Shown piece by piece: positions 6,101-20,651 of a stretch of DNA of 64,000 nucleotides. How positions within the stretch are numbered: position 1 is the stretch's first letter; each line of letters opens with the position of its first letter. A program made the position numbers and the translations under genes. The notes below the pieces were generated by a model. It was not told the DNA's origin. It saw only the letters and a list, made by a program, of their open reading frames with translations, and did no database searches. The stretch lies in the NCBI RefSeq assembly GCF_037914945.1, contig NZ_CP149787.1, positions 2,356,001 to 2,420,000 of the forward strand, written 5' to 3'. Origin of the DNA: Haloterrigena sp. KLK7. GTDB taxonomy: Archaea; Halobacteriota; Halobacteria; Halobacteriales; Natrialbaceae.

Positions 6101-6154
6101 GAGGAGAGAGGGTGACGTCTCGGACTCCTCGACGTGTTCGGTATCCGTACTCAT
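3149..6154 (-). CDS. aglB: Oligosaccharyltransferase AglB (STT3 family)
   Basis: About 1001 residues. It transfers a preassembled glycan from dolichyl phosphate or diphosphate to Asn in N-X-S/T of secreted proteins such as the S-layer. The N-terminal half has about 13 membrane spans; a GVDSWYQWR loop lies near residue 60 and QLDHHVGE near 175. WWDYG is at about residues 582-586 and a DK-type motif (YEMAGGK) at about 660. The start is the second ATG at 6154 (MSTDTEHVEE); a TATA-like TTATTC about 27 bases upstream suggests a leaderless mRNA. The extracellular C-terminus ends in an Asn/Thr/Gly/Asp tail with seven N-X-S/T sequons. DUF368 follows downstream, and the glycan island lies upstream. 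Confidence 0.96.
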   Translation of the reverse strand: MSTDTEHVEESETSPSLLETWSDWYHIPILGAVMLFMFWVRTQAYDQFVTDDGSPALAGVDSWYQWRTIEWTAENYPNTMPYEVWSGFPEGTYVGQFGTLFDQIIVTVAMIVGLGDPSPETVYAVALLMIPAMAALVAIPVFYMGRRLGGTLGGLISIAILALAPGTFLTRSTVGQLDHHVGEVLFMAIAVVAMMAALRSGERGKPVYELIVDRDWNALRAPTIYSVLAGVAMMLYIWVWPAAIVLVGILGVFFAIQLCLDYLRGVSPDHIAFVGAISLGVTALTTMLLIEQSGFNVTSFSYLQPFTALLVAAGCVFMAWLAREWNNRDLDRRYYPVAIGGIVAAILLVMWLTLPGLYNTLIGNLTSRLLPLNPGTGTLTIAEAQPPDNFRDHVRSEFGMAFYTMLAGLALLVARPFRDREFRAEYTLILVWSLFLISMTATQVRFTYYLVLAVAVVNAVFIADVVEIFNLDIRGGIDAVRGIETYQVIVLFLVVILLFAPLLPPIAADDSTSWEQANSTGPSYDATMVWEGSNEWLANNTPEPGNWGEHENADQLDYFGTYQIPEDGDYDYPEGSYGVMSWWDYGHLITTQGERIPHANPFQQNAPSASAFLTAESEERGELVLDTIAAGENPADRSNEELESMAENASHEEMRYVMIDYEMAGGKFSAITAWSGPNYEHYVTPSGHEDGEPVNINDYQNGTIPYYDTMQSQLYFDDADGLEHYRTVHENTDAGTATIVAAAQVFVPGAIQGQAAQELQQLGYQEGDVIYYQDGEFAAPGEGRPSIRVQQMGFQQIQRIQQNPTQQLLGARSAAAVKTFERVEGATLTGTVDDEAGVLGNDTTAAVEVELETNAGRTFNYTQETEVADDGSFELTVPYATNDELGVEDGYTDSAVEATGEYNVTVGEPGETGYEAQTAVPETAVVEGDTVTVDGFEQTELEDSNESADGNETDGGNETDGGDQTDDGNETDTGSADGNQTDGGNQTGNETGSDGAEPEDN

Positions 6155-6177
6155 TAGGTTGCACCAGACCCAAGTCA

Positions 6178-6190
6178 AGAATAAGCCTTG
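6178..6190 (-). promoter_or_regulatory. Probable TATA region of aglB
   Basis: On the minus strand GGCTTATTCTTG lies about 27 bases before the aglB ATG at 6154, the normal spacing for a leaderless haloarchaeal transcript. The remaining 281-bp gap up to 6435 is AT-richer and contains another TATA-like element (GATTTATACC, plus strand, near 6207). No further gene was seen there. Confidence 0.4.
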
Positions 6191-6435: not shown

Positions 6436-7995
6436 TTACTCCAGATAGCCGAGTTCCCGTAGTCGGTCCTTTACTTCGTCTTCCCGCTCGTCGTCGCCCG
6501 AGACGCCACCACCAGTGACTGCTTCCGCGCCGATAAAGTCGTAATACTCGGGGTCGCGTTCGGCTGGCTCGGCGCTATCGGCGAAGACATCAAGGACATC
6601 GCTGGCTATCGACGTCGGCAACCGATAGCCCAGCGTGTGCAAGACCGTCGGTGCGATATCCGTCAACGTCGCGTCCTCGATGCTCCCGTCGCGGAACGAC
6701 GGACCGCGTGCGAGGAATATTCCCTCGCGAGCGTGACCGCTAGTATCGACCTCGAACAGTGTCTCGTCGACGTCGAACCGCGAGGAGGCGTGGATCCCTG
6801 GCGTTTCGATGATCAGACAGAGGTCCGGTGTGTGGGGTCCGCCCCGATCGAGGCGGTGGAAACGAGCTTCGAGCCCGTTGCGTTCGATCGCGTTTCGAAG
6901 CGTGGTTTCGATGTCATCGCAGGTCCGGGCAATCGCGTCGGGCTCGTTCTCAAGGACGTAAATCATCGCGGTCTTCTGACCAACGTCCGCCAGTGCTCTC
7001 GTCTCGGACCAGTCGATCCGACCAGTGCTGATGGCGTTATCGAGCCCGAGGCTATCGCCCGTCGGAACACCGGTCAACGCACTTTCGGGGATCAGCTTTC
7101 GAGCGACCGTCAGCAGTCCTGCTCGAGCAAGTACGTCGCTGGCGATGTCACGTACCGAACCAAGCGCTGCCTTGGTCGCATCGCCGGAGTCACTCAGTGA
7201 GACGAACCCGGCGCGCTCGAGGACGACGTTGACTGCGAAGTTCGCGCGAACCTTCTCGAAGCCGTGATCGCTGATTACGACGACGTCCTCGTCTTCGTGA
7301 GCGTCGAGGAACTCTCCTAGCCGCTCGTCGACGCGGCGATAGACCTCGAACACCGGGTTGTCCGGCGAGGCGGGCGGAACGTTTTCGTCTCCCCAGTAGT
7401 GGTGTGCGACGCGATCGGTCGCTCGGATCAGACCGACCGCCAGATCGGGGTTTTCGTCTCGGATGAAGTGTTCGAACGCCTCGAACCGCTTGTCGACTAA
7501 CTCGAGACTCAGATCGATGTAGGCGCGCGATCCTGGCGGTTCGTCGTTCCGGAGTTTGTATCCGTCCACGAGGTCGGTCAGTTCGTCCCACCGTTCCGGC
7601 GGATGTGCGTACTCGTCCTTGTACTCGGGAGCAGCCGCGATGATCGTGCCGTCAATGGCCTGCCACGGATAGGAGCCCGGGATGTTGAACACGACCGACG
7701 ATCCGCCCTGATCGTCGACGATGTCCCACATCTTCCCGGGGACGAACTCGTCGTGACTGAGGTCGTTCTCGCGCGTTTCGCGGTTGAAGTGCGTGAACCC
7801 GTACATGTCGAAGTCCGGCGGGTCCCGCCCCGTCGCGAACGCCGGCCACGCGGGGACCGTGATCTCGGGGACCGTACTCTCCAGTTCGCCGTGAACGCTC
7901 TCCTCGAGCAGGCGCTCGAAGGTCGGAAGCCGTCCGGACTCCACCCACGGTTTGATCAGCGAAAACGTCGCACCGTCGAGTCCGAGAATGATCAT
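6436..7995 (-). CDS. Alkaline-phosphatase-superfamily (phosphodiesterase-type) enzyme, copy 1
   Basis: A 519-residue member of the type I phosphodiesterase/nucleotide pyrophosphatase branch. Likely catalytic positions: the first metal Asp in MIILGLDGATF, Thr in EITVPAWPAFATG, Asp and His in ATDRVAHHYW, the DH of VISDHGFE, and a late His in SGHAREG. There is no signal peptide, so it should act in the cytoplasm. I chose ATG 7995 because the fold begins directly there; a TTG 27 bases upstream is possible. It ends LRELGYLE, like its paralogues. Substrate unknown; in this glycan locus, transfer or removal of a phospho- or sulfo-linked group on a lipid- or nucleotide-linked sugar is a reasonable guess. 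Confidence 0.82.
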   Translation of the reverse strand: MIILGLDGATFSLIKPWVESGRLPTFERLLEESVHGELESTVPEITVPAWPAFATGRDPPDFDMYGFTHFNRETRENDLSHDEFVPGKMWDIVDDQGGSSVVFNIPGSYPWQAIDGTIIAAAPEYKDEYAHPPERWDELTDLVDGYKLRNDEPPGSRAYIDLSLELVDKRFEAFEHFIRDENPDLAVGLIRATDRVAHHYWGDENVPPASPDNPVFEVYRRVDERLGEFLDAHEDEDVVVISDHGFEKVRANFAVNVVLERAGFVSLSDSGDATKAALGSVRDIASDVLARAGLLTVARKLIPESALTGVPTGDSLGLDNAISTGRIDWSETRALADVGQKTAMIYVLENEPDAIARTCDDIETTLRNAIERNGLEARFHRLDRGGPHTPDLCLIIETPGIHASSRFDVDETLFEVDTSGHAREGIFLARGPSFRDGSIEDATLTDIAPTVLHTLGYRLPTSIASDVLDVFADSAEPAERDPEYYDFIGAEAVTGGGVSGDDEREDEVKDRLRELGYLE

Positions 7996-8044
7996 GTCCG
8001 TCGTGACGCGGGCGACCGGCAAAAGGCGTATGGTCTGCTCGACT
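7993..8044 (-). promoter_or_regulatory. Promoter/start segment of copy 1, duplicated at 10425-10476
   Basis: This 52-base stretch spans the start codon and upstream region of the phosphodiesterase gene at 6436-7995. It matches 10425-10476 at 44 of 52 positions, including the identical core GGCAAAAGGCGTATGGTCTG. On the minus strand CCTTTTGCC lies about 27 bases before the ATG, the place of a TATA box, so the segment is probably a leaderless promoter. The IS left end begins at the next base (8045). Confidence 0.55.
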
Positions 8045-8650
8045 GGCGCTGTTTCGTTAAGCGTGAGAAGTGAGGCAGTACGGTTTGTGGTGCTCTATGC
8101 CAAAAACCGACCGTCTCAGTGGATGTAGCGGCTGGATCAATTTGAGTTTTGTGGAGCGAGAACGGACACCGCGTCAGCTGATGGAGTTCGGTATTCGACT
8201 ACATCTTGCAGGTCCCCCGCTTTCGAATATCGTTCGAAAATTAGAGAAGTTCGGTATCAAACCCAGTCGTAAGGCAGTCTACGATTGGGTTCACAAGTGC
8301 GATCTACAGCCAGCAGATGACGAGAATCCGAATCACATCACACTTGACGAGACGGTGATTCAACTTGATGACCACCACTATTGGCTGTACCTCCCGGAGA
8401 AACACGACCTTGATGATGCCCTGTTTCTCATCGATGGAGTAAAACATCTCCAGACTGCACTCCGTCGATCTGGGCTCCGATTTTGATACGAAAAATATGG
8501 AAATCGGAACGCTGCTAAACGTGTCTTTCGTGAGATAAAATGACCCACCTCTTCGTTCTCAAACTATTTTACTCACGCACAACCGACAACAGCCGAATCG
8601 TGGCTCCAAGCCTTCACCATCTGGCACAATGCTACGAACTAAACATGGCC
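8045..8650 (+). mobile_element. Decayed IS6-like element
   Basis: The ends carry imperfect terminal inverted repeats: left GGCGCTGTTTCGTT (8045-8058) and right, read inward on the minus strand, GGCCATGTTTAGTT (8650-8637), 11 of 14 matching. Between them lies a broken transposase gene. At about 606 bp it is shorter than an intact element because the transposase has lost an internal piece. No target duplication was identified. The left end abuts the duplicated promoter segment exactly, so this element probably took part in the rearrangement that brought in the flippase gene. Confidence 0.7.
8097..8642 (+). pseudogene. IS6-family (ISH-type) transposase, inactivated
   Basis: In one frame the product starts MPKTDRLSGCSGWINLSFV and continues RERTPRQLMEFGIRLHLAG, which I recognise as a haloarchaeal IS6-type transposase. 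About 30 codons between HYWLYL and EKHDLDDALFLIDG appear missing, removing part of the DDE core. TGA stops occur at 8484-8486 and 8541-8543. Family-like sequence resumes after each (NRNAAKRVFREIK, then PTTAESWLQAFTIWHNATN) and ends at TAA 8640-8642. It cannot make an active enzyme. Confidence 0.8.
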
Positions 8651-8677
8651 GAGAGCGCAAGCAGAAGAGTACAGCGT

Positions 8678-10144
8678 TCACGGAAGCATATCGTTACGGA
8701 GGTCGCGGAGTACGTTGACGGCATCGATACGAATCCGTTCGCTCAGTAGCAACAACGCCGTGAAGTAGGCCCCCGCGCCTGTGCCGAGCAGGATCGAAAT
8801 ACGGACCCAGCCGTGAGCGTCGCCTAATTGTGATTTGAGGGCGTAGACGACAGCCGTCATTAGGAGCATCGATACGATTTGAACACTGACGTCGACCAGC
8901 GCTGACGACGGAATCCGCTCGTTGAGGAAGTAAAATAGACTGGCGACACTTGCGCCGAACGCGAGTACCGTCGCACACGCGATCCCCCATGAACCAAACG
9001 TCATCGTGAGCGGAATTGATAATATACCATAGACACTAATGAGAAGAACACCACTGACTGCGTACAGGCGCGGCTGTCCCGTGCCAAGGAAGAACATCTC
9101 GAGTCCCTCTCGATAGCCGTTGAATAAGTTTGCTATACCGAGTATCGGGAGCAAGGCGTTCGCCATTCCCACCACTCCAATGAAGGGGAGCGTTAACGTC
9201 CCCGGATCGTTCGCATAAAGCGTGAGCAGCAATCCATTTCCGATGACGGCCCCACCGCCGATCATTGGAATCGCGAACAGACCAGCATAGGTGAATACGT
9301 TGGTCAGAAGACGAGAGACATGTTCGTGGTCATCGCTTTCCGTCAAAGCAGAGAACTGCGGAAACGCCACCTGTGCCAGTGCAGACGAGAACAACATTGA
9401 CGCCTCGGTAATTCGAAATACGTTCTGATAGACACCTGCCGATCCGGGGCCAACGAACTGGCCGAGAAGCAGATAATCGGCCTGTTTGAATAGCTGGCTG
9501 GAAACGCTCTGGATATAGGCATACTTTGAATAGGTAACGAAGTCTCGAAACAGTTCAAGTGAAGGTCGCGCAGGAATAACACGTGCGAACCCAACGTATG
9601 AAATCAGGAATACGAGAAACTGGCCAGCTATTAGTCCCCAAATAAGCCCGAGAACGCCGAATCCTGCGACAATCAGCGCCGCCTGAATCGGTACAATAAG
9701 TGCGTATCGACCGTTTTCTATCGCCCCGACGAGAGCGACGCGCTGTTTCCCTTCTAGAAATGCTCCTGATAGTCGAAACAGGCCCCACGAGAGTACGCTG
9801 AGGGGAACGAAAGAGGCAGCGTTTACACCGACGATCCGGTTGACCGAATCCTGTAACATGAAAGATAGTATGGTGACAACAACGACACCCGCCAAGAGAA
9901 TCAGTGCACCACTTGTGAACTGTCGTGCTTCTTGGTTCTTCTCGCTTACCCGCTTAACGACAGTTGGATAGAGTCCGAAACTGACTAGATTAGCTGCCAC
10001 CATCTGGATACTGAAAAAGATCGCATAACTGCCGATTCCGGCGAATCCGAGCTCACGTGTAAAGATAACGGTTCCAAGAAAGCCTGCGAATGTCCCGAAT
10101 ACATTCGTGATGAAACGTTTCGATATTTCTGCTCCAACCTTCAT
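8678..10144 (-). CDS. Oligosaccharide flippase (polysaccharide transport/Wzx family)
   Basis: A 488-residue integral membrane protein with about 12-14 hydrophobic spans, starting MKVGAEISKRFITNVFGTF. Pattern and length fit the PST branch of the MOP exporters (RfbX/Wzx, AglR-like). Such proteins move, or help move, lipid-linked glycans across the membrane for AglB. Composition is clearly AT-richer than flanking DNA, with many A/T-ending codons. Together with the decayed IS on one side and a gene fragment on the other, this points to acquisition by transfer. The actual lipid-linked substrate cannot be told from sequence. It is the only flippase of this type in the window. Confidence 0.88.
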   Translation of the reverse strand: MKVGAEISKRFITNVFGTFAGFLGTVIFTRELGFAGIGSYAIFFSIQMVAANLVSFGLYPTVVKRVSEKNQEARQFTSGALILLAGVVVVTILSFMLQDSVNRIVGVNAASFVPLSVLSWGLFRLSGAFLEGKQRVALVGAIENGRYALIVPIQAALIVAGFGVLGLIWGLIAGQFLVFLISYVGFARVIPARPSLELFRDFVTYSKYAYIQSVSSQLFKQADYLLLGQFVGPGSAGVYQNVFRITEASMLFSSALAQVAFPQFSALTESDDHEHVSRLLTNVFTYAGLFAIPMIGGGAVIGNGLLLTLYANDPGTLTLPFIGVVGMANALLPILGIANLFNGYREGLEMFFLGTGQPRLYAVSGVLLISVYGILSIPLTMTFGSWGIACATVLAFGASVASLFYFLNERIPSSALVDVSVQIVSMLLMTAVVYALKSQLGDAHGWVRISILLGTGAGAYFTALLLLSERIRIDAVNVLRDLRNDMLP

Positions 10145-10146
10145 TA

Positions 10147-10437
10147 TTACAGATAACCTAGTTCGAAGAGTCGTTCTTTAATCCCGTCACTGCCGATAGC
10201 AACCATCTCTATCCCGACGAAACCGTAGTATTCTGGATCGTTTTCTATAGCTCCGATTGTCTCCACAAAAGAACAAAAGGTCTCGTCAACTTTCAAGGTC
10301 GGCAAGTGAGTGTATGGCCGGCGCATTGACTTCCCCTCTCGTTTGATGTGGCGAAAACAGCTTCCCGATATATCGTAGTCGGTCGCGTAGCAAAGTGCGG
10401 TTTCGGCTCTGTCAGAGAGACGTTCATATTCGTCGTG
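10147..10437 (-). pseudogene. C-terminal fragment of a sixth phosphatase/sulfatase-like gene
   Basis: On the minus strand an open stretch of about 97 codons, with no start codon, runs to TAA at 10147-10149. Its end reads DPEYYGFVGIEMVAIGSDG followed by IKERLFELGYL. This parallels DPEYYDFIGAEAV...DRLRELGYLE at the end of the copy-1 enzyme, and RRPYTHLPTL parallels its LGYRLPTS. A duplicated promoter-plus-ATG (ATG at 10427) is joined just upstream but in a different frame and reaches a stop within about 45 codons. The coding sequence is AT-rich like the flippase. I read it as the remnant of a lost paralogue. Confidence 0.65.
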
Positions 10438-10476
10438 ACGTAGTCAACTGGCAAAAGGCGTATGGTCTGCCCGACT
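10425..10476 (-). repeat. Orphan copy of the 7993-8044 promoter/start segment
   Basis: This copy matches 7993-8044 at 44 of 52 positions, including the ATG, and ends inside the stop codon (10475-10477) of the following enzyme gene. Here the promoter-like unit drives only an out-of-frame gene fragment. The two copies bracket the IS, flippase and fragment (8045-10424), as expected if that block entered a pre-existing junction between two phosphodiesterase genes. Confidence 0.6.
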
Positions 10477-12076
10477 ACTCGAGGTATCCGAGATCAGAGA
10501 GCCGCTGGGCGACCGCATCGTCCTCGGTTGCGGCCTGCTCGCGGACCGCGTACTCGGGATACGACGCCGGCTCCGGCGCGTCGACCGCTGGAAGGGGATT
10601 GCCGTCCATCCCCTCGTCGGGAGCGATGCCGAGCGACGCCAGCACGGTCGGGGCGACGTCGAACAGATGTGCGCCCGATAGGTCGGCTTCCGCGTTGACG
10701 CCGGTGCCCGCGATCGCGACGATGCCGTCCCGTTTGTGGTTGTACGGTTCGGGATCGTCGAACTGCCCGCCGATGACCGCCGACAACGAGTGCTGGAAGT
10801 CGGTCGGAACGACGAGCACGTCGATGGCCTCGTCGGCATACGGCCCGTTGATGTACCGCTCACGCCTGACGACCTCCTCGAAGACCGGCGTCCCGTCCGG
10901 CGTCGTTGCCTCTGACAGTAGCGCGATCAGAGCGTCGCGAGCGCCCTCGTACTCGTCGGCAGGGACAACGCCGTCGGGATCACGTCCCTTGACGTTCAGG
11001 CGGACGCCCAGTTCGGACGGCGATCGGAGGTACGCCCGCGACGCCGTGAAATCCACGGCGTCGCTGGCGGCGAAGACGGCGCTGACGGGCACGTGCCTGC
11101 CGACGAACTCGGCGAGGCCGACCCGTTCGAGGACGGCTTTTCCCCGCTGATACGTCAGGCCAGTGCCGGCGGCGGCGGCCGCGAGCCGCTCGAGGATCGG
11201 CGACCCCGAACTCCCGTTGTCGCTCTCAGTCAACCGTTCGTCTTTGATCTGGAACCACGAGGGGACGCCCTGTCCGTCCCGCGTGGTCTCCACGATCTCC
11301 TCCTCACGGAGGTACTGATTGACCCGGAACTCGTAGCCCTCGTACTCGCCCATGCCGTGATCGCTGGCGACGACGACGGTGTCGGGGTCGCAGTCGTTGA
11401 GGATCGCTCCGACCTGCTCGTCGACCGCGCGGTAGATCCGCCGCACTTTCTCGCGGTCGCCGGGGAAGTCGTGGAACACCGCGTCCGTCTTCTGGAACTG
11501 GACGAAGCCGAACTCGGGTTCGAACCGGTCGGCGAGGTAGCAAAACGCCTCGCCGCGCAGCCGGCTGAGCTCGACGTAGTCCTCGAACTTCTCCTTGCCG
11601 GCGCGCTCGTCGGTCTCTCTGCGAGCGTAGACGCGGTAGTCACCGACCGCCTCGCGAACATCCTCGAGGATCCCCGCCGGCTGACACTGCGGGTCCTCCG
11701 AGGCCAGATAGCCCGGAATTACGGCGCCGTCGATCTCGGGCGGGGGGCTCGTCACCGGGACGTTGACCACGACGCTCGTCAGCCCCGCGTCGTCGGCGTA
11801 CTCCCAGAGGCTCCGGTGGCGCACGTCGGTCGCGTTCACGATGTCCCAGTCGTAGCCGTCGAATCGCAGAAAGTCGAAGACACCGTGTTTACCGGGATTG
11901 ACGCCGGTGTACAGCGACGGCCACGCGCTCGCGGTCCAGGGCGGGATTTGGGACGTCAATTTCCCTGTCACTCCGTCCGCAAAGAGCGACTTGAGATGCG
12001 GCAACTCACCGTCCTCGAACAGCGGCCGGAGCACCGGGAAACAGGCAGCGTCGAGTCCGAACAAGAGGGTTTTCAT
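10475..12076 (-). CDS. Alkaline-phosphatase-superfamily (phosphodiesterase-type) enzyme, copy 2
   Basis: A 533-residue paralogue of the copy-1 enzyme. Metal/nucleophile positions: Asp in MKTLLFGLDAACF, Thr in PPWTASAWPSLYTG, Asp and His in QKTDAVFHDF, the DH of VASDHGMGEYEG, and a late His in EPYNHKRDGIV. No signal peptide, hence cytoplasmic. ATG 12076 starts at the first strand of the fold; an ATG four codons upstream (12088) is the alternative. It ends LSDLGYLE. Phosphomutase, phosphodiesterase or transferase activity cannot be told apart by sequence. The 250 bp upstream, towards the divergent glycosyltransferase, hold both promoters. Confidence 0.82.
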   Translation of the reverse strand: MKTLLFGLDAACFPVLRPLFEDGELPHLKSLFADGVTGKLTSQIPPWTASAWPSLYTGVNPGKHGVFDFLRFDGYDWDIVNATDVRHRSLWEYADDAGLTSVVVNVPVTSPPPEIDGAVIPGYLASEDPQCQPAGILEDVREAVGDYRVYARRETDERAGKEKFEDYVELSRLRGEAFCYLADRFEPEFGFVQFQKTDAVFHDFPGDREKVRRIYRAVDEQVGAILNDCDPDTVVVASDHGMGEYEGYEFRVNQYLREEEIVETTRDGQGVPSWFQIKDERLTESDNGSSGSPILERLAAAAAGTGLTYQRGKAVLERVGLAEFVGRHVPVSAVFAASDAVDFTASRAYLRSPSELGVRLNVKGRDPDGVVPADEYEGARDALIALLSEATTPDGTPVFEEVVRRERYINGPYADEAIDVLVVPTDFQHSLSAVIGGQFDDPEPYNHKRDGIVAIAGTGVNAEADLSGAHLFDVAPTVLASLGIAPDEGMDGNPLPAVDAPEPASYPEYAVREQAATEDDAVAQRLSDLGYLE

Positions 12077-12289
12077 GTCTCGAAGCATCGGACCCTCGGG
12101 CTTAAATGTGCTTTTCGTCTCCGGTCGCTATCTCGTACCGCTCGTCTCAGTGTCACTCGAGCGCGTCATGAGCGCGGTGTACGGCGAAAATTCGATTGAT
12201 ATTGATAAGTAATAAAGAGAACTACTGCTCGCAAGCCGACCGGAACCACCCAACTCGTCACCAAGAACCGCTCCCGAGTCGGGCGTCAG

Positions 12290-12303
12290 CGGGGGTTTTA
12301 ACC
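12290..12303 (+). promoter_or_regulatory. Promoter of glycosyltransferase 12327
   Basis: GGGGGTTTTAACC places a TATA-like TTTTAA about 27-30 bases before the ATG at 12327, which implies a leaderless transcript. It lies in the divergent gap between the copy-2 phosphodiesterase and the plus-strand group starting at 12327. Confidence 0.4.
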
Positions 12304-12326
12304 GTCCGGCCCGCACCGCCTCGACC

Positions 12327-13361
12327 ATGAATCCCGACGCTGTCAGCGTGGCGATGCTCCATCAGGAACCACACCCAGCCCACCGCGGATTCGCGGAGGC
12401 CGTGAGTGCGGACCTCGTCGACTACCACCGCCTCTCGCTCGGTCCTCTCGAGGAGACCGTCCTCGAGGACGGGCTCAACGGGGTCGTCTATCCGGACTAC
12501 GATGTCTATCTCGTCGAGGGGTCGCGACCGCTGTATGCTGCGCTCACCCGTCGGTTCACGCGCGGTGGGAAACTAGTCTATCTCTGTGCCGACCACGGCC
12601 TCTGCCAGCTCGGAAACGCGGACTTCGAGGGGGATTCGGCGCTGAAGTCGCTGATCGGCAGGTTCGGGACGCCGATCATTCGCGGCGTCGGGCGCCGCGG
12701 CATCGACGGTGTGATCGCCGTGTCGGAGTTCGCTGCGGAGTTCACTCGCCCTGTCGTCGGCCCCGAGACGCCGATCGAGATCGCTCATCCGTTCGTCCAG
12801 CCCGGGACGTACGACGCGCTCGGGGACGTGACACCCGACATCGAGTCGAACGTCGCGGTCACGGTCGCTCGTCCGTGGCGGTACAAGGGCATAGATATGC
12901 TCGTCGACGCGTGGCCGCGGGTCCGCGAGGCCGTGCCCGCCGCCGAACTCCACGTCGTCGGCGGCGGTCATCCCGAGGCCTACGGCGAGACGCCGGGCGT
13001 CCGTGTCCGAGGATACGTCGAGAACCTCGCCGACGCGTTCGCGCCCGCCTCGTTGTTCGTCCAGCCGTCGCGGATGGACACGTTCCCGGTCAGCACGCTC
13101 GAGGCGATGCGGGCTGGACTCGTTCCGCTCGTCACGCGGACCGCGGGGACGCGGTCCGAAGCCCGCGAGATCGATCCGTCCCTCGTCGTGGAACCCAGCA
13201 CGGACGCGCTCGCTCGCGGCGTCGTGGAGTACTTCGAGCGCGGTCTGGCCGACCGACGTGAACTCGCGGCCCGCGCCCGGGAGCGCGGCGACCGGTTTGA
13301 TCCGGACTCTAGGACGGCCGCGTTTCGCGAGTCATTCCGTGAGGTACTCAAAGCACTTTAA
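12327..13361 (+). CDS. Glycosyltransferase family 4
   Basis: A 344-residue GT-B glycosyltransferase, probably moving a nucleotide-activated sugar to a lipid-linked acceptor at the inner membrane face. The C-terminal domain has the usual group-1 features: VTVARPWRYKGIDMLVDAW near 190, ELHVVGGGHPEAYGETPGV near 220, FVQPSRMDTFPVSTLEAMRA near 245 (E-x7-E type donor-binding region), and GLVPLVTRTAGTRSE. The N-terminal domain is shorter than average, so total length is at the low end. It heads a plus-strand group with two phosphatase-superfamily genes; the next gene starts 24 bases after its stop. Donor sugar unknown. Confidence 0.85.
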   Translation: MNPDAVSVAMLHQEPHPAHRGFAEAVSADLVDYHRLSLGPLEETVLEDGLNGVVYPDYDVYLVEGSRPLYAALTRRFTRGGKLVYLCADHGLCQLGNADFEGDSALKSLIGRFGTPIIRGVGRRGIDGVIAVSEFAAEFTRPVVGPETPIEIAHPFVQPGTYDALGDVTPDIESNVAVTVARPWRYKGIDMLVDAWPRVREAVPAAELHVVGGGHPEAYGETPGVRVRGYVENLADAFAPASLFVQPSRMDTFPVSTLEAMRAGLVPLVTRTAGTRSEAREIDPSLVVEPSTDALARGVVEYFERGLADRRELAARARERGDRFDPDSRTAAFRESFREVLKAL

Positions 13362-13385
13362 CCCGGAGAGAGCGATTCCCCATCC

Positions 13386-14945
13386 ATGACTGTCTACGTC
13401 GTCGGTCTCGACGGAGCCGACTGGTTGCTTCTGCGGCCGTGGATCGAGGAAGGACACCTCCCTGCGTTTTCTCGAATACTCGACGATGGCGTCGCGGGTG
13501 ACCTCGAGAGCACCCTCCCGCCAGTCACGTTTCCCGCGTGGAAGTGTTATTCGACTGGAAAGACACCCGGGAAACTCGGTGTCTACGAGTGGTTCGCGTA
13601 CGACCGGCGAACCAACGAGATCGCTGCCAACGATGCCAGTGACTTCCGGTCGCGGGAATACTGGGACGTGCTGGCCGACCACGGCCACCGTGCCGGCGTC
13701 GTCAACATGCCGACGACCCATCCGGCCGACGCCGGCGGGCGAACTGCTGACGACGGCGTGTTCGTCGTCGCCGGCAGCCCCGCCAGCGAGCGCAAGCAGT
13801 TTACCGCTCCCGACTCGCTGAAAGACGACTTGCTCGAGGCGATTCCCGCCTACCGCGTCAAGCCCGATCTCGTGCTCGACGAGGCGACGCCCGACGAACT
13901 GGTCGCCGAAGCGACGGCGCTGTTCGAACAGCGGTTCCGCACGGCGACGTGGCTCGCCGACGAGCGGGACTGTGATCTGGTCCACACGACGCTATTCGCG
14001 ACTGACACGCTCCAGCACCGGCTCTGGGACCGGCCCGAGAAACTGCGGGCGGCATACGAACGCGTCGACGACCTGCTCGCGGACCTGCTCGAGCGCGACG
14101 ACGCGGAGGCGGTCGTGCTCATGAGCGACCACGGCTTCGTCGAAATCAACGAAATATTCCTCGTGAACCAGTGGCTACTCGAGCGCGGCGACCTCGCGAT
14201 CAAGGAGTCGGAGACGCGGGACCTGCTGGCGACCGTCGGCCTCACGGAGGAACGGCTCAAGCACCTCGTCGACCGGCTGGGACTGGTCAACCTCGCCCAG
14301 TCACTGGTTCCGGAGTCGGCCCAGCGGTTCTTCCCAAGCGAGAGCGGCCGTATCGCGATTCAGGACGCCGCCATCGACTGGGAGCGAACCAAGGCCGTCT
14401 CGCTTGGCCGCGGCCCGATCTACGTCAACTGGGATGCATTCTCGAGCGACAACGCCGTCACACGGTACGCATCGGAGCTTGCCGCCGACCTCGAGGCTCT
14501 CGAGACGCCCGCCGGCGATCCCGTCGCGACCACCGTTTACGATCCGGCCGACGTCTACACCGGCGACCGACCGCGCGGCCCCGATCTCCTCGTCGAGTAC
14601 GCGCCGGGCGTCGACGCGCCCGAGGCGATCGGCGGCGCCGTCTTCGGCGAGACGACCGAGTGGCTCGCGACCCACCGTCGGACCGGTGTGTTCGCGGCGT
14701 GGGGGGAAGACGTCGCCGAGGGGAGCGCGGACCTCGAACTGTACGACCTCGCGCCGACGCTGCTGCATTACCTCGGCGTGCCCGTCCCCGAGGATGTCGA
14801 CGGCGACGTGCGGTTCGACGTGCTGACGGGCGAGCCCGCGGAGCAGTCGATTGAGCGGGGGCCGCCGACCGCCACCGTCACGCGCCGACGGGGTGCCGGC
14901 GAGGAGGTTGAAGAGACGCTGCGGGAACTGGGATATATGGAATGA
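13386..14945 (+). CDS. Alkaline-phosphatase-superfamily (phosphodiesterase-type) enzyme, copy 3
   Basis: A 519-residue paralogue. Key positions: Asp in VVGLDGADWLLL, Thr in PPVTFPAWKCYSTG, Asp/His in FATDTLQHRLW, the DH of LMSDHGFVEINE and His in ATHRRTGVFAAW. There is no signal peptide. A TATA-like ACTTTAAC at about 13355-13362 overlaps the end of the preceding glycosyltransferase gene and sits about 27 bases before the ATG, so the gene probably has its own leaderless promoter inside the operon. C-terminus LRELGYME. It is followed after 19 bases by a sulfatase-type gene. Function inferred as for the other copies: modification of glycan precursors in the cytoplasm. Confidence 0.82.
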   Translation: MTVYVVGLDGADWLLLRPWIEEGHLPAFSRILDDGVAGDLESTLPPVTFPAWKCYSTGKTPGKLGVYEWFAYDRRTNEIAANDASDFRSREYWDVLADHGHRAGVVNMPTTHPADAGGRTADDGVFVVAGSPASERKQFTAPDSLKDDLLEAIPAYRVKPDLVLDEATPDELVAEATALFEQRFRTATWLADERDCDLVHTTLFATDTLQHRLWDRPEKLRAAYERVDDLLADLLERDDAEAVVLMSDHGFVEINEIFLVNQWLLERGDLAIKESETRDLLATVGLTEERLKHLVDRLGLVNLAQSLVPESAQRFFPSESGRIAIQDAAIDWERTKAVSLGRGPIYVNWDAFSSDNAVTRYASELAADLEALETPAGDPVATTVYDPADVYTGDRPRGPDLLVEYAPGVDAPEAIGGAVFGETTEWLATHRRTGVFAAWGEDVAEGSADLELYDLAPTLLHYLGVPVPEDVDGDVRFDVLTGEPAEQSIERGPPTATVTRRRGAGEEVEETLRELGYME

Positions 14946-14950
14946 TTTCC

Positions 14951-14956
14951 GGAGGG
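14951..14956 (+). promoter_or_regulatory. Shine-Dalgarno site of sulfatase 14965
   Basis: GGAGGG lies eight bases before the ATG at 14965, in the 19-base gap after the copy-3 gene. Many genes here look leaderless, so a clear SD supports translation from a polycistronic mRNA and fixes the start. Confidence 0.6.
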
Positions 14957-14964
14957 ACTGACAA

Positions 14965-16320
14965 ATGAACCCGCTCAAACGGTTTCCACGACTGAACAAT
15001 GCTTGGATGGATCTCAAGCACCGGACCCGCCATCAACTGCGGCGCCGGGACCGCAAGGTCGCGTTCGAGGCGACCGTCGAGGAGCCGCGAAACGTGCTCG
15101 TGGTCGTCGTGGACTGCTTGCGCGCCGATCACGTCAGCGGTTTCGGCTACGACCGGGAGACGACGCCCGCGCTCGATGCGTTCGACGCCGCCGCCTTTTC
15201 GAACGCCAAGGCGCCGAGCACGTGGACGTTCCCCTCGGTGCCGTCGCTGCTGTCGGGACGATACCCCCACGAGCACGGTGGCCGGTTCGAGACCGACCCG
15301 CGGAACCTCTCGGCCGAGCAGTTTCCCCGCCGGCCTCGCGCCGACATCGCGACGCTCCCCGACCTGCTGGGGACCGCGGGCTACGATACCGGCATGGTGA
15401 CGGCGATTCCGATGGCCGAGAAGGCGGTCGGCGACCGGTTCCAGTCCGTCTCGGTCCGGTATACCGCCGCCGAGGAGCGGGTGGCCGCGGCCCGCGACTG
15501 GATGGCCGACCGCGATCGGTGGTTCTGCTATCTCCACCTCGGCGATCCACACGTCCCGATGAACGTTCCCGACGCGCACCGCGAGACGTTCGACGTGCCG
15601 TCGATGGCGGAGCTCAACGACTGGCGGTTCCGGGAGACGACCGACGGCGAGAGGTTCGAGGAGTACCGCGACGCCCGCATTCGCGCCTACGACGCGGCGA
15701 TCAGGGGGGTCGACGACGCCCTCGAGACCCTGCTGGCGGACGTCGACGACGAGACGGTCGTCGTGGTCTGTGGCGACCACGGCGAAGCCTTCTGGGAACA
15801 CCCGGATCTCGAGCGCCGGCTGAACGACGATCCGCGGGGCTACTACGCGACCGACCACGGCCACAGCGTCCTCGAGGAGGTCGCACGGGTCCCGCTGTGG
15901 GTGCACGCGCCCGGCGTCGACCGGACCGCGTTGGATCGTCCCGTCTCGCTGGTCGACATCGCGCCGACGATCCTCTCGGCGCTGGGCGGGACCGTTCCAG
16001 ATGGCGTCGCCGGCCGCTCGCTCGACGAGACCGCTGACGCGGATGCGGACGACCGGACGCTGCTCTGCGAGGAAACCGCCTACGGCTACAATCAGCGCGC
16101 GGTGTGGCACGAGGGCCGGAAGGCGATCATTGTCCCCGAAACGGAGACGACGCTGGCGTTCGCGCTCGAGGACTACCTCGAGGGCGAACCGCTGGAAACG
16201 ATTCCCGATGCCCTCGAGAAGGCGCTCGAGTCGTTCGACGGCGGCGTCGAGGGAGCCGACCGGATGGCCGTCGACGACGACACGCGCGATCGACTTGAGG
16301 AACTCGGCTATCTGGAGTGA
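14965..16320 (+). CDS. Sulfatase-family enzyme with Thr at the nucleophile position
   Basis: A 451-residue sulfatase-branch member of the alkaline phosphatase superfamily. Metal motifs: VVVDCLRADHVSGFGYDR near 50, VVVCGDHGEAFWEHP near 270, and ATDHGHSVLEEVARVPLWVH. The nucleophile region reads STWTFPSVPSLLSGRYPHEH. Where arylsulfatases have Cys/Ser (formylglycine) in C-x-P-S-R, this has Thr and no Arg, as in phosphoethanolamine/phosphoglycerol transferases. A basic N-terminus (MNPLKRFPRLNN... then LRRRDRK) without signal peptide suggests a cytosolic or membrane-peripheral protein. It ends LEELGYLE. Annotation as 'sulfatase' is by fold only; phospho-group chemistry is at least as likely. Confidence 0.82.
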   Translation: MNPLKRFPRLNNAWMDLKHRTRHQLRRRDRKVAFEATVEEPRNVLVVVVDCLRADHVSGFGYDRETTPALDAFDAAAFSNAKAPSTWTFPSVPSLLSGRYPHEHGGRFETDPRNLSAEQFPRRPRADIATLPDLLGTAGYDTGMVTAIPMAEKAVGDRFQSVSVRYTAAEERVAAARDWMADRDRWFCYLHLGDPHVPMNVPDAHRETFDVPSMAELNDWRFRETTDGERFEEYRDARIRAYDAAIRGVDDALETLLADVDDETVVVVCGDHGEAFWEHPDLERRLNDDPRGYYATDHGHSVLEEVARVPLWVHAPGVDRTALDRPVSLVDIAPTILSALGGTVPDGVAGRSLDETADADADDRTLLCEETAYGYNQRAVWHEGRKAIIVPETETTLAFALEDYLEGEPLETIPDALEKALESFDGGVEGADRMAVDDDTRDRLEELGYLE

Positions 16321-16519
16321 GAGCTATACGCACTCGAGAATTTGATGGATAGATAATACGTTTGATTCAGATTGTTACGCCTGAATCCGCATACAATGAC
16401 ATGATAGTGGATCTGAAGTTCGTTCTGACCGTAAATAGGACGTTCCGTTGCGATTGATACGGATCGATCACTAATATGAATAGAATGATCTATTGGCAAA
16501 CAGGGAACAGCCAACCGGA

Positions 16520-16535
16520 ACTACAATTAACATGT
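16520..16535 (+). promoter_or_regulatory. Probable promoter of methyltransferase 16555
   Basis: CTACAATTAACATG contains a TATA-like AATTAAC about 27 bases before the ATG at 16555. The whole 234-bp gap from 16321 is AT-rich compared with its flanks and contains no other recognisable gene. Confidence 0.4.
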
Positions 16536-16554
16536 ACACATAGTGTAAACCTCG

Positions 16555-17028
16555 ATGGAACAGAAGTTGAATCTCGGTTGTGGAGACGATTATCGTGACG
16601 GGTGGGTCAACGCCGACGTTCGCTCCGAGGTTAGTCCGGATGTAGTCATCGACCTCGACAGTCTCCCGCTTCCGTTTCAAGACGATACGTTCGATCGAAT
16701 ACTGCTCGACAACGTCTTGGAACATACCGTTGACCAGTTGGCAGTATTGCGCGAACTGCATCGAGTCAGCGAACTGAACGCCGAAATTACGTTTCGCGGA
16801 CCCCACTGGAACAGTCACGGTGCATGGATAGATCCGACGCATACACGCCCTTTCTCTCACAAAACGTTCGAACACTACCTCGTGGCCGATCTATTCGATG
16901 TGGTTCAGGTGTCTGCAAAGCGGATCCGATTCGGACGGTTACTGCCCCCTAATATCGCTCTCAAAGTCGCGGACCATATTGGACAGGTCGTTAGCGAAAT
17001 CGAAGTTACCGTTCGAGTCCGCAAATGA
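16555..17028 (+). CDS. Small SAM-dependent methyltransferase-like protein
   Basis: 157 residues. The N-terminus has a class I methyltransferase motif I (KLNLGCGDDYRDGWVNADV) with a DLDSLPLPFQDDTFDRILLD segment typical of the methyltransf_11 group, then LEHTVDQLAVLRELHRVS. After that comes GPHWNSHGAWIDPTHTRPFS, seen in similar proteins of polysaccharide loci. It is short for the family but contains the complete SAM core. Base composition is AT-richer than most neighbours, like the flippase. A role in methylating a glycan sugar is likely from position but unproven. It converges on the sulfatase gene at 17048. Confidence 0.75.
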   Translation: MEQKLNLGCGDDYRDGWVNADVRSEVSPDVVIDLDSLPLPFQDDTFDRILLDNVLEHTVDQLAVLRELHRVSELNAEITFRGPHWNSHGAWIDPTHTRPFSHKTFEHYLVADLFDVVQVSAKRIRFGRLLPPNIALKVADHIGQVVSEIEVTVRVRK

Positions 17029-17047
17029 TACCCCGCCGAATAGTGCC

Positions 17048-18415
17048 TCAGAGATAGCCGAGATCACGCAGGTGATCCTCAACCATCGCGTCTTCCTCGT
17101 CGATGCCGACCGACCCGTCCTCGCGGAACCGACGCATCCGCTCCTGGTGGTCGTCTAACGCCTGCGAAAGCTCGTCGTACTCCGGACGCCCGTCGCCGGA
17201 GCGATCGTCGGCCGGCGATTCTGCCGGCGCCTCGGTCACGTCGAAACAGAACTCGCCGTCGTCAGCGTGGCGAAGCAGTTTCCAGCCGTCGGCTCGGCGC
17301 GCACAGCATCGTCCGTACTCGATCTGCCGCCCGACGTCGCCAAAGGCGTACTCGCGGGCGCCGATCTCGCCGTCGGCAACGGGCAGCGCAGACGCGCCCT
17401 GCCAGCCCTCGAATGGCGGTCGGCCGACCGCGTCGGCGATCGTCGGTGCCACGTCGAGGAGGCGAATCTGGCCGTCGACGGCGTCGCCGTCGCGGTCGGG
17501 GTGGTGGAGGACGAACGGCACCCGAACAATCCCCTCCCAGAACTCTGGCGGGTGGCCGGCGTGGCCATGTTCGCCGACGAGTTCGCCGTGATCGGCCGTA
17601 AACAGGATTACTGTCTCCTCGAGGAGATCCCGCTCCTCGAGGGCGTCCAGCAGTGCATCGAACTGGTCGTCGATGTAGGCGCACTCGGCGTCGTAGAGCT
17701 GGCGGATCAACTCCCACTCCTCGTCGGTGACGTCCTCGGGGTGGTGGGTACCCTTCCGGGAGAGGCCGCGGCAGCGCGACAGCGAGAGCGGTTCGTCGAG
17801 GAACTGCTGCTGGTAGGCTTCGGGCGCTTCGTAGGGATGGTGGGCGTCCATGTAGTGGAGCCACGAGAACCAGTCGTCCGACTGCTCGTCGATCCACTCG
17901 AGCGCCCGCTCGTTCAGCGACGCCGCGCGCTCGTACTCGCTGTCGGCATCGGTTGCGCCGGCCAGGAGCGCATCGACGCGGTTGTATACCGTCTCGATGG
18001 TCCTGAACAGCGCACCGTTCTTGTCGAGGTTCGACTGGACGAACTGTTTGAGCCGGCCCGCTTCGGCCGTCCCGCTGGCGTCGTACATCGTCTCGAAGCC
18101 GCGATCGTAGTGGTAAGAGCCGCTGGCGAAGTGGTTGTCCGTGTATCCGGCGGTCGCGAAGCCCGCGTCCGAGAGCATCTCGGCCAGCGTTCGAATGTCG
18201 CCGTCGGCATCGCGGGGCGGAATACCCAGTCCCTCGATGCTGGCGAAGTGACGGCTCGCGTGGATGGCCGGAAACGATGCGGGCGTTGACGGGCCATTGG
18301 CGATACACTCGGTAAACTCGACGGCGTCGTCGGCGAACGACCGGGTCGCGGGCATTACACTCGAGGTCACCCGGTCGGCGCGCAGCGAGTCGACGGTCAC
18401 CAGGAGGACGTTCAT
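17048..18415 (-). CDS. Sulfatase-family enzyme, second member
   Basis: A 455-residue sulfatase-branch protein. It starts MNVLLVTVDSLRADRVTSS, has a Thr-containing nucleophile region GPSTPASFPAIHASRHF, the histidine motif WLHYMDAHHPYEAPE, and TADHGELVGEHGHAGHPPEF followed by WEGIVRVPFVLHHP. The formylglycine Cys/Ser-x-Pro-x-Arg signature is absent (T-P-A-S-F). No signal peptide; it ends LRDLGYL. It precedes a glycosyltransferase pair on the same strand (35-bp gap from 18451). Probably a cytoplasmic glycan-modifying enzyme; sulfate-ester hydrolysis is less likely because the modified residue is missing. Confidence 0.82.
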   Translation of the reverse strand: MNVLLVTVDSLRADRVTSSVMPATRSFADDAVEFTECIANGPSTPASFPAIHASRHFASIEGLGIPPRDADGDIRTLAEMLSDAGFATAGYTDNHFASGSYHYDRGFETMYDASGTAEAGRLKQFVQSNLDKNGALFRTIETVYNRVDALLAGATDADSEYERAASLNERALEWIDEQSDDWFSWLHYMDAHHPYEAPEAYQQQFLDEPLSLSRCRGLSRKGTHHPEDVTDEEWELIRQLYDAECAYIDDQFDALLDALEERDLLEETVILFTADHGELVGEHGHAGHPPEFWEGIVRVPFVLHHPDRDGDAVDGQIRLLDVAPTIADAVGRPPFEGWQGASALPVADGEIGAREYAFGDVGRQIEYGRCCARRADGWKLLRHADDGEFCFDVTEAPAESPADDRSGDGRPEYDELSQALDDHQERMRRFREDGSVGIDEEDAMVEDHLRDLGYL

Positions 18416-18450
18416 GTGGACTCGAAGTCAGCGGACCCTCAAAACAGTAC

Positions 18451-19512
18451 TTACCTGCCGACGCGACTCCGCGAGCCAGCGTACCGGTCGACGAGGCGGT
18501 CAACGACGTCGTCCCAGTCAGGAATCCCGCCGGCGTCGATCTCGCGATCGACCGCCTCGCGAACGGCGTTCGCGACCGATACCGGTGACGGATCGGTGAC
18601 GCCGACACAGCCGTTGCGATTGATCCAGTCGGTCAGCGCGCCGGCCGCTCTGACGACGCACGGCGTTCCGGCGGCCAGCGCTTCGGCGATCGTCATTCCG
18701 TACGCTTCGAACGACGACAACGACACGTACGCGTCCGCTCCCGCGTAGAGGTTCGGGAGTCGATCATCGTCCACGAATCCGAGAAACGTCACTCGATCCG
18801 AGACGCCTTCCGCTCGGGCAATACGCTCGAGGGCCGATTTGTACGAACCGCGTCCGGCGACTACCAGTTCGTACGCGGGGAGATCGGGGAGCGCACGGAT
18901 CACGTGCTGGACGCCCTTGTACTCCTCGAGACGACCGACTGACAGGAGATATCGCCCGTCCCGTCGTTCGGGATCGGCGGTCGCGAACCGATCGACGTGC
19001 AGGCCGTTTGGAATCACCGTGGCATCGACACCGAAGTCCGCACGGAGTTGCTCACGTTCCCAGTCGCTGACGGCGATTACGTCGTCCGCTCGCCGAACGG
19101 CCCACCGACCGAACGGGCGATAAAGCGAGAGCAACGCATCCCGAACGTCGTCGGCGCTACCGCCGTGGTAGTGAGTCGTCACAATGAACCGTTCGTCAGT
19201 AACGCCGAGAGCGGCGAAGAACAGCGGAAACGCGTGGTAATTGTGTGCGTGAACCACGTCTGCATCGAACCGACGGACCGCACGGGTCAGTTGGGGTGCG
19301 ACGTAGAACGAACCACTGGGACTGACGGAGCGAAATCGGCGAACGCGAATGTCGTCGACGATACTGGTTGCCGTCACGTCGGCTCCGGCGTCCGTGCTAA
19401 ATACCGCGACGTCGTGGCCGTCGGCGGCGAGCCGCGTCGCGACCTCCTTGACGTGGGTTTCGACGCCGCCGGTACGAGGCGGATAGCGGTGCGTGACGAA
19501 CAGTAGTCTCAT
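18451..19512 (-). CDS. Glycosyltransferase family 4
   Basis: A 353-residue GT-B enzyme. The start MRLLFVTHRYPPRTGGVETH is the typical group-1 N-terminus, so I chose ATG 19512 over an upstream in-frame start. Further motifs: VVHAHNYHAFPLFFA near 85, VIAVSDWEREQLRADFGVD near 145, LLSVGRLEEYKGVQHVIRAL near 190, ELVVAGRGSYKSALERIA, and SLSSFEAYGMTIAEALAAGT near 280 (E-x7-E). Its ATG overlaps the stop of the upstream GT2 gene by four bases (ATGA, 19509-19512), indicating translational coupling. The two enzymes probably add successive sugars to the same acceptor. Confidence 0.9.
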   Translation of the reverse strand: MRLLFVTHRYPPRTGGVETHVKEVATRLAADGHDVAVFSTDAGADVTATSIVDDIRVRRFRSVSPSGSFYVAPQLTRAVRRFDADVVHAHNYHAFPLFFAALGVTDERFIVTTHYHGGSADDVRDALLSLYRPFGRWAVRRADDVIAVSDWEREQLRADFGVDATVIPNGLHVDRFATADPERRDGRYLLSVGRLEEYKGVQHVIRALPDLPAYELVVAGRGSYKSALERIARAEGVSDRVTFLGFVDDDRLPNLYAGADAYVSLSSFEAYGMTIAEALAAGTPCVVRAAGALTDWINRNGCVGVTDPSPVSVANAVREAVDREIDAGGIPDWDDVVDRLVDRYAGSRSRVGR

Positions 19513-20651
19513 TCGAATGCCTCTCGCAATTCGGCATCGACGTCCCACGTGCCGTCCGAGTCACCGACGACCAGCGAGACGCTGGCCCGCAGCAGCGACA
19601 CCTGCGCGTCGAATATCGAGTACAGCGCCTGTACGGGTCCGAGCAGGTCTTTTTGTCCGAGGTACGCGAACAGTCCGACGGTGGCCGGACCCACTAGGCC
19701 ACTGATACCGAACAGCGATACGACCGCACTGGTTCCGACGACTAACGTCGCCGCCAGCAGCCACGGCGACACCACCATGAACCACCAGTTGAACGGCAAC
19801 ACGAGCTTCCCGTACCGTCCGTACCGGCCCAGGGCATCCCGATGTTGAACTAATAGCCGAATCAACCCCATTCCGCGTCTATCCTTCTGCTTTCGTCGTT
19901 TCACGAACTCGGAGTGGCTCGCCTCCATGTACTTCACGGCAGGGTCGAAGATAACGCGGCCGTCCTGCCGTCGGATCTTCAGCGCCAGTTCCGTGTCGTC
20001 GGCCAGCGAGTTCGGATCGATCGGTAGCAACGCGTCGTTTTCGAATGCAGAGAACGGCCCGTGGAAGATCAGCGTCGAGTCGAGATGGGATTCCAGTTGC
20101 TGAATGTGACTCTGGACGCCCCGGTAGCCGGACTCGACCTCGCTGCCGCCGAGCACTTCGACGTTGCGACCTGTCACAGCTGCAATGTCGTCGTCCGCAA
20201 GATTCGCGGCGGCCTCACGGAGGGCGTCTGGCGCGAGTTTGGAATCACAATCGGTCTTCACGACCATTTCGTTCGACGCGGCGGCGTAGGCGTCGTTGAG
20301 CGCCGGCGCGAGTCCGCGGCGTTCGTCTTCCTCGAGCAATACCAGATCGGGCGCCTCCAGGTCCTCGAAGTACTCCCGGATGATCGTCCGCGTATCGTCG
20401 GTCGAGGAATCCACTACGACGAGTTCCACTTTCTCCATCGGATACTCGAGCGCGAGCAGATCGTCGAGTTTCGTTTCGACGATCTGTGCTTCATTGTACG
20501 TCGGCAGGACGATACTAACCGTCGGTTCCGCGGGCGTTTTGTCGGCGGGCGACCCCTGTGGTCGGATCCACGCATAGAGCGCGAGGTAGCAGAGATACGG
20601 GAACGCCGTAAGGAAGAGAAGTGTGACCGCAGCGACGGCAAGTACGTTCAT
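19509..20651 (-). CDS. Membrane glycosyltransferase family 2
   Basis: A 380-residue GT-A enzyme with one N-terminal span (about residues 3-28) and two to three C-terminal spans. Motifs: SIVLPTYNEAQIVETKLDDL, VVDSSTDDT, KTDCDSK (DxD), LADDTELALKIRR, and KRRKQKDRRGMGLIR, a QxxR-type motif. Layout is like cellulose/hyaluronan-synthase-type GT2 proteins. It probably initiates or extends a glycan on a dolichyl lipid, or polymerises a surface polysaccharide; sequence alone does not decide. The gene is coupled through an ATGA overlap to the downstream GT4. It forms the outer edge of the glycan island. Confidence 0.88.
   Translation of the reverse strand: MNVLAVAAVTLLFLTAFPYLCYLALYAWIRPQGSPADKTPAEPTVSIVLPTYNEAQIVETKLDDLLALEYPMEKVELVVVDSSTDDTRTIIREYFEDLEAPDLVLLEEDERRGLAPALNDAYAAASNEMVVKTDCDSKLAPDALREAAANLADDDIAAVTGRNVEVLGGSEVESGYRGVQSHIQQLESHLDSTLIFHGPFSAFENDALLPIDPNSLADDTELALKIRRQDGRVIFDPAVKYMEASHSEFVKRRKQKDRRGMGLIRLLVQHRDALGRYGRYGKLVLPFNWWFMVVSPWLLAATLVVGTSAVVSLFGISGLVGPATVGLFAYLGQKDLLGPVQALYSIFDAQVSLLRASVSLVVGDSDGTWDVDAELREAFE

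Follow-up and report, generated by a model that had tools for sequence, protein, structure and literature searches.

Why should a haloarchaeal gene cluster for protein N-glycosylation carry five proteins of the alkaline phosphatase (AlkP) superfamily, two of them sulfatase-like, among its glycosyltransferases (GTs)? We addressed this question in Haloterrigena sp. KLK7, in a window of 64,000 nt (positions 2,356,001 to 2,420,000 of NZ_CP149787.1; gene positions are numbered within the window), where the oligosaccharyltransferase gene aglB anchors a cluster encoding these five proteins, designated S1–S5 (Table 1). Protein identities were taken from translations and from Pfam and NCBIfam scans; S1–S5 reached Pfam scores of 119–130 bits, against curated cut-offs of 23–25. 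The sequence-only reading of this locus had described five intact superfamily proteins and a fragment of a sixth, interleaved with a flippase, two GT4 enzymes, a membrane GT2, and a methyltransferase. The Pfam scans bore out this arrangement, and the coordinates and folds (three PF01663 and two PF00884 proteins) were likewise confirmed. We propose, with about an even chance of being right, that S1–S5 are cytoplasmic glycan transferases with a Thr nucleophile, most likely sulfotransferases. On our analysis, sulfation would be the most likely function for S4 and S5 and a plausible one for S1–S3.

Alignment placed Thr at the nucleophile position in all five window proteins, including the two "sulfatases," as the sequence-only reading had it. 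The metal ligands beside the Thr are intact, and profile, nucleophile, and ligands alike identify S1–S5 as AlkP-superfamily members. Among S1–S3-type homologs, Thr was the nucleophile in 56/56 aligned rows, and residues D9, T48, D207, H211, D248, H249, and H430 (S3 numbering) were invariant or nearly so. In the 43 rows of S4/S5-type homologs, the nucleophile was Thr in 37, Ser in two, and Cys in one (three rows had a gap), and D9, D275, H276, and H288 were conserved in the alignment as metal-site or catalytic residues. At the position of the formylglycine motif, S4 reads TFPSV and S5 reads TPASF, with neither the Cys nor the Arg of CxPSR, and GKWH (the sulfate-site Lys/His) is also absent; their relatives that share the C-terminal tail described below likewise lack the Cys, the Arg, and GKWH. 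Because the Cys, the Arg, and GKWH are all missing, S4 and S5 are, judged by these residues, not ordinary formylglycine hydrolases, in agreement with the earlier view of them. The single Cys row belongs to a protein encoded elsewhere in the same genome (L027), which has GKWH as well as the motif Arg; Cys-type sulfatases were limited to this protein and L025:12165. Simple hydropathy and motif scans detected no signal peptide (again as first read), twin-arginine translocation (Tat) motif, lipobox, or transmembrane stretch in S1–S5, and all five are predicted to be cytoplasmic. In Foldseek, the AlphaFold2 model of S3 (predicted local distance difference test [pLDDT], 87) matched ENPP1/4/5/6 and phosphonoacetate hydrolase, and that of S5 (pLDDT, 90) matched S1-family sulfatases and phosphonate monoester hydrolase (PMH). 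The set therefore comprises two fold subclasses, one like nucleotide pyrophosphatases/phosphodiesterases (NPPs) and one sulfatase-like.

The neighborhoods of these proteins strongly support a link to glycan assembly. Genes at the compared loci were predicted with an in-house gene finder that had been trained on the window, and linkage was scored with GT4, GT2, flippase, and AglB profiles grown from window genes over approximately 10 kb on each side. Of 40 loci encoding S1–S3-type proteins in other haloarchaeal genomes, 26 contained a GT4, GT2, flippase, or AglB gene, compared with 0/20 control loci around a universal 447-aa PF01663 paralog (Fisher test, 5e-7); as the profiles are narrow, 26/40 is probably a lower bound. 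For one PF00884 subfamily, glycosylation neighbors were present at 30/30 loci, and annotated plasmid records showed GT39, GT2, GNAT, polysaccharide deacetylase, nucleotide-sugar dehydrogenase, and flippase genes near an "alkaline phosphatase family protein." The cassette itself is conserved in another GTDB family: locus L159 (genome G017) carries aglB, flippase, S1, S2, an extra PF00884-type gene, GT4a, S3, S4, S5, GT4b, and GT2, in nearly the same order and on the same strands as in the window, its S3 and S5 orthologs sharing 82% and 76% identity with the window proteins. Across orthologs in other families, S3 and S5 identity was 72–82%, and pieces of this gene set are also present at L184 (G041) and L073 (Halorubellus salinus). 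Relative to L159, S1 and the flippase are swapped, and the window has an additional S1-type remnant adjoining the flippase, a transposase-like fragment, and the methyltransferase, the last of which was not at the corresponding spot in the conserved cassettes compared; the fragment and the remnant suggest rearrangement relative to the L159 order. The neighborhood comparison that the sequence-only reading had suggested was thus positive and, together with the cassette kept in another family, upholds its view that these cytoplasmic proteins are linked to the assembly of lipid-linked glycans.

S1–S5 all terminate in LxxLGY(L/M)(E). In the DNA fetched for the comparison, LGY occurred within the last nine residues of 208/222 non-housekeeping superfamily gene calls, with MGY or IGY in three more, compared with none of 20 housekeeping PF01663 paralogs, neither of the two Cys-type sulfatases, and 9/1823 other gene calls. 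These nine comprised three superfamily members that the profiles had not picked up, four 70-aa ribbon-helix-helix proteins, one CysD-like protein, and one non-terminal match. In the AlphaFold models of both classes, the cores had a pLDDT of ~95, and the tail formed a helix with values of 52–66 following a poorly placed linker; this low confidence weakens the idea that the tail is a folding element. In choline sulfatase and PMH, C-terminal tails drive oligomerization and extend to the neighboring active site (PMC5870055), and by this analogy an inter-subunit role (oligomerization) or docking to a common partner is the most likely function of the tail. A literature text search yielded no paper on LGYLE together with sulfatase and none relevant for COG3379. 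The idea that the tail is confined to haloarchaea was rejected, since Thr-type relatives in Planctomycetota and Sumerlaeota end likewise. In one Planctomycetota metagenome-assembled genome, two such PF00884-type proteins encoded near each other (L088:8795-10879 and L088:13744-15885) have long N-terminal membrane segments, a PWT.PSH Thr, and an LGY/IGY tail. Ribbon-helix-helix proteins of about 70 aa in the same neighborhoods end in QLxxLGYL (L063:14392-14628, L074:2461-2673, L075:2842-3051, and L077:14907-15116).

The CysD-like protein is universal in haloarchaea (PF01507, 323 aa; L264:4921-5892 [G000:C1:3270920-3271891] and L267:4929-5900), scores below the CysD cut-off, and ends in KEDLMERLRDLGYM in the KLK7 genome, in Halobacterium G064, and in almost every further copy checked. 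Bacterial CysD carries a related terminal motif, and the tail of the CysD-like protein may therefore reflect inheritance instead of a shared tag. The 447-aa PF01663 paralog adjoins the CysD-like gene in G004 and Halorubrum trapanicum; it is a single-copy gene in most sampled haloarchaeal genomes (L195–L214; G000:C1:2738368-2739534), untailed, without glycosylation neighbors, and with the C-terminus FDGxSL(V/A/L).

The precedent for sulfation comes from Halobacterium salinarum, in which two AlkP-superfamily proteins of the aglB cluster, Agl30 (VNG1056C) and Agl31 (VNG1057C), were reported in 2025 to be N-glycan sulfotransferases. According to that report, Agl30 is a membrane protein and Agl31 is cytosolic, their deletion lowers N-glycan sulfation by 50- to >300-fold, and each adds sulfate to the glycan of Haloferax volcanii when expressed there; no mechanism at the residue level was found in it (PMC11980604). 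Two claims of the sequence-only reading gave way here. It had taken Thr as a sign of phosphate chemistry, a rule that does not carry over because the relatives in the Halobacterium aglB clusters that we examined have Thr or, in an Agl30-like subfamily, Ser as the nucleophile (tailed Thr-type PF00884 proteins are present in these clusters). It had also raised the possibility of an undescribed pathway, and superfamily members of the H. salinarum aglB cluster are already on record as sulfating the N-glycan. Primers printed in the report decode to the C-termini HLEDLGY for Agl30, LEELGY for Agl31, and KELGYIE for VNG1063H (PMC11980604). Agl30 and Agl31 remained active with the C-terminal tags used in the published work, and their C-terminus thus need not be free. 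By primer peptides at positions 77 and 110, which six members of the L029:7187-8632 subfamily contain, Agl30 tentatively belongs to that subfamily, with one unrelated protein scoring higher; VNG1063H was placed in a family of ~315 aa, and Agl31 could not be placed. Elsewhere, a "sulfatase" is listed in the aglB cluster of Halorubrum sp. PV6 (PMC6137143), and sulfated hexuronic acid linked to dolichol phosphate (DolP-linked HexA-SO3) was detected in Haloarcula hispanica, so that sulfate addition is possible while the sugar is still on its lipid (PMC9943897).

We therefore favor a model in which S1–S5 would decorate dolichol-linked glycans built by the neighboring GTs, ahead of the flipping step and of AglB action, and in which the group added by S4 and S5, if not by all five, is most likely sulfate. 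Nucleophilic attack by the Thr on the sulfur of an activated donor, either 3'-phosphoadenosine 5'-phosphosulfate (PAPS) or adenosine 5'-phosphosulfate (APS), would yield a covalent sulfo-Thr at the metal site, from which the sulfate would be handed to a sugar hydroxyl. Multiple copies would provide position and sugar specificity, like Agl30 and Agl31, and the common LxxLGY helix would mediate oligomerization or docking to a shared partner. Our data show the fold, the Thr with its metal ligands, the lack of the residues for sulfatase hydrolysis, the predicted cytoplasmic location, the conserved linkage, and the common tail. We infer which group is moved, what donates it, the covalent intermediate, and what the tail does, and likewise the substrates, because the window proteins are not orthologs of Agl30. 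A bolder and improbable extension is that the tailed AlkP proteins with a Thr nucleophile, the NPP-like branch among them, form an unrecognized guild of transferases acting through sulfo- or phospho-Thr, with a docking helix in common with the CysD-like protein (KEDLMERLRDLGYM), such that activation and transfer would take place in one cytosolic assembly.

Several observations weigh against sulfotransfer by the whole set. S1–S3 belong to the other Pfam family, the solved relatives of which are phosphodiesterases and phosphonoacetate hydrolase. S4 and S5 branch apart from the Agl30-like clade and are not Agl30 orthologs (Agl30 being located by primer peptides only), and the Agl30-like subfamily in our data has Ser instead of Thr. 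VNG1063H is also tailed, and no role in sulfation was detected for it (PMC11980604). AglB occurred in 1/40 of the S1–S3-type loci; most are polysaccharide clusters away from aglB, so the role would be wider than N-glycosylation. A structure or in vitro assay of Agl30 or Agl31 was not found in the literature, and the Thr mechanism is thus unproven even for these enzymes. Furthermore, an APS kinase gene in the KLK7 genome (L265:4893-7865; G000:C1 about 3786-3789 kb) adjoins a marginal match to P-loop sulfotransferases (28.5 bits against a 27-bit cut-off), a likely P-loop sulfotransferase that would make this locus a separate PAPS-based sulfation machinery. The idea that haloarchaea have no P-loop sulfotransferase was discarded: a family search found none in 18 genomes, yet the L265 match was seen only by protein scan, so such a search can miss these enzymes. 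Among the 18 genomes, a canonical APS kinase was present in that of KLK7 only, and the remaining hits were weak, partial P-loop matches.

The fold difference within the set invites another division of labor, which we regard as possible but doubtful: S4 and S5 would be sulfotransferases of the Agl30/Agl31 kind, and S1–S3 would transfer or remove phospho-linked groups (phosphoglycosyl or phosphoethanolamine-like groups, or nucleotide-sugar cleavage). The Foldseek separation of S3 from S5, the NPP-type Thr, and the seven invariant or nearly invariant site residues all suit this arrangement, whereas the tail and the cassette are common to S1–S3 and S4/S5, and the literature consulted contained no haloarchaeal N-glycan with phosphate. 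If instead the proteins were cytoplasmic hydrolases that trim nucleotide sugars or strip groups from lipid-linked glycans as proofreaders, an option raised by the sequence-only reading, the complete metal site and the cleavage of nucleotide phosphodiesters by NPP relatives would be accounted for; this is unlikely, however, as S4 and S5 lack the residues of hydrolytic sulfatases, and Agl30 and Agl31 add sulfate in a new host (PMC11980604).

Two further explanations we consider very improbable. The broken sixth copy and the transposase-like fragment show turnover, as would be expected if paralogs had merely built up in an island of surface-glycan variation, several of them decaying or redundant and with little individual function, but the other five copies are unbroken and retain every catalytic residue, and S3 and S5 are closely conserved in other families. 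Some or all of the proteins might also be secreted without a recognized signal and act on S-layer glycans after their completion or on substrates in the environment. Among the solved S1-type relatives, most are secreted or periplasmic enzymes, and some bacterial tailed relatives (L088) have the membrane segments mentioned above; against this stand the negative scans for a signal peptide, Tat motif, or transmembrane stretch in S1–S5. In addition, Agl31 was shown to be cytosolic (PMC11980604).

In its genome, the cluster is part of a larger island. KLK7 has 21 distinct superfamily genes (PF00884 plus PF01663), nine of which are packed into 39 kb, the window included, of 4.64 Mb; this clustering is beyond chance (post hoc binomial, 6e-14). 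Upstream of the window, the island continues with four further superfamily genes and GT and flippase homologs (genome 2335-2342 kb), and its upstream half contains a second GT2 copy that is 61% identical to that of the window. Three overlapping tandem superfamily genes (481, 373, and 305 aa) lie at L029:7187-10664 (G000:C1:2335187-2338664), the first with a Ser nucleophile and probably of the Agl30 subfamily. The sixth-copy remnant in the window is 40% identical to S1 residues 459-518 in tblastn, and three paralogs of S2 (50–55% identity) are encoded elsewhere in the genome.

Table 1. Genes and gene fragments of the aglB cluster in the window
Feature	Position	Strand	Evidence
aglB, oligosaccharyltransferase (STT3 family), cluster anchor	3149..6178	-	PF02516, AglB_L1, AglB_core
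S1, PF01663 AlkP superfamily, Thr nucleophile, tail RLRELGYLE	6436..7995	-	Pfam E 6.7e-37, alignment
Transposase-like open reading frame fragment between S1 and flippase	8070-8486		no Pfam match
Wzx-like flippase	8678..10144	-	PF13440/PF01943
Sixth copy, C-terminal remnant of S1-type gene, end ELGYL-stop	about 10147..10305	-	tblastn, translation
S2, PF01663 AlkP superfamily, Thr nucleophile, tail RLSDLGYLE	10475..12076	-	Pfam E 2.9e-34
GT4a, GT4 glycosyltransferase	12327..13361	+	PF13692/PF00534
S3, PF01663 AlkP superfamily, Thr48 nucleophile, tail TLRELGYME, NPP-like fold	13386..14945	+	Pfam E 2.1e-37
S4, PF00884, Thr replacing formylglycine Cys, tail RLEELGYLE	14965..16320	+	Pfam E 4.7e-35
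S-adenosylmethionine-dependent methyltransferase	16555..17028	+	PF08241
S5, PF00884, Thr44 replacing formylglycine Cys, tail HLRDLGYL	17048..18415	-	Pfam E 1.1e-35
GT4b, GT4 glycosyltransferase	18451..19512	-	PF13439/PF00534
Membrane GT2 glycosyltransferase	19509..20651	-	PF13641

The enzymes of archaeal glycan sulfation are a recent finding and of an unexpected fold: they look like sulfatases but put sulfate on. The window shows that their family is large and falls into several subclasses, among them NPP-like proteins to which no role has been assigned; new here are how large the cassette is and what it contains, together with the NPP-like branch, the invariance of the Thr, and the common tail. 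If the Thr is indeed the sulfate carrier, this would be sulfotransfer chemistry unlike that of P-loop sulfotransferases, and many genes currently annotated as "sulfatase" or "alkaline phosphatase family protein" would have to be reassigned.

Among known systems, EptA, MCR, LtaS, and OpgB use the AlkP fold and a Thr nucleophile for group transfer onto glycans. S4 has weak NCBIfam matches to such phosphoethanolamine and phosphoglycerol transferases; EptA/LtaS-type enzymes, however, combine a membrane domain with an extracytoplasmic catalytic domain, and S1–S5 have no transmembrane stretch. ENPPs, Xac NPP, and phosphonoacetate hydrolase (PF01663) share the fold, the Thr nucleophile, and the two-metal site of S1–S3 at 11–17% identity, but ENPPs work outside the cell and have no known tie to glycan clusters, whereas the window copies are tailed and predicted to be cytoplasmic. 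Formylglycine sulfatases (type I, S1) and PMHs (PF00884) have the fold of S4 and S5, which in turn lack Cys/Ser-x-P/A-x-R, GKWH, and a signal peptide; unlike S4 and S5, the Cys-type sulfatases of the same genome (L027 and L025:12165) are untailed. Agl30 and Agl31 differ from the window proteins in that S4 and S5 fall outside the Agl30-like clade, S1–S3 belong to PF01663, and S1–S5 have Thr where the Agl30-like subfamily has Ser. They resemble S1–S5 in their superfamily, their location in an aglB cluster, the absence of a secretion signal, the LxxLGY tail, and the presence of several differing copies side by side.

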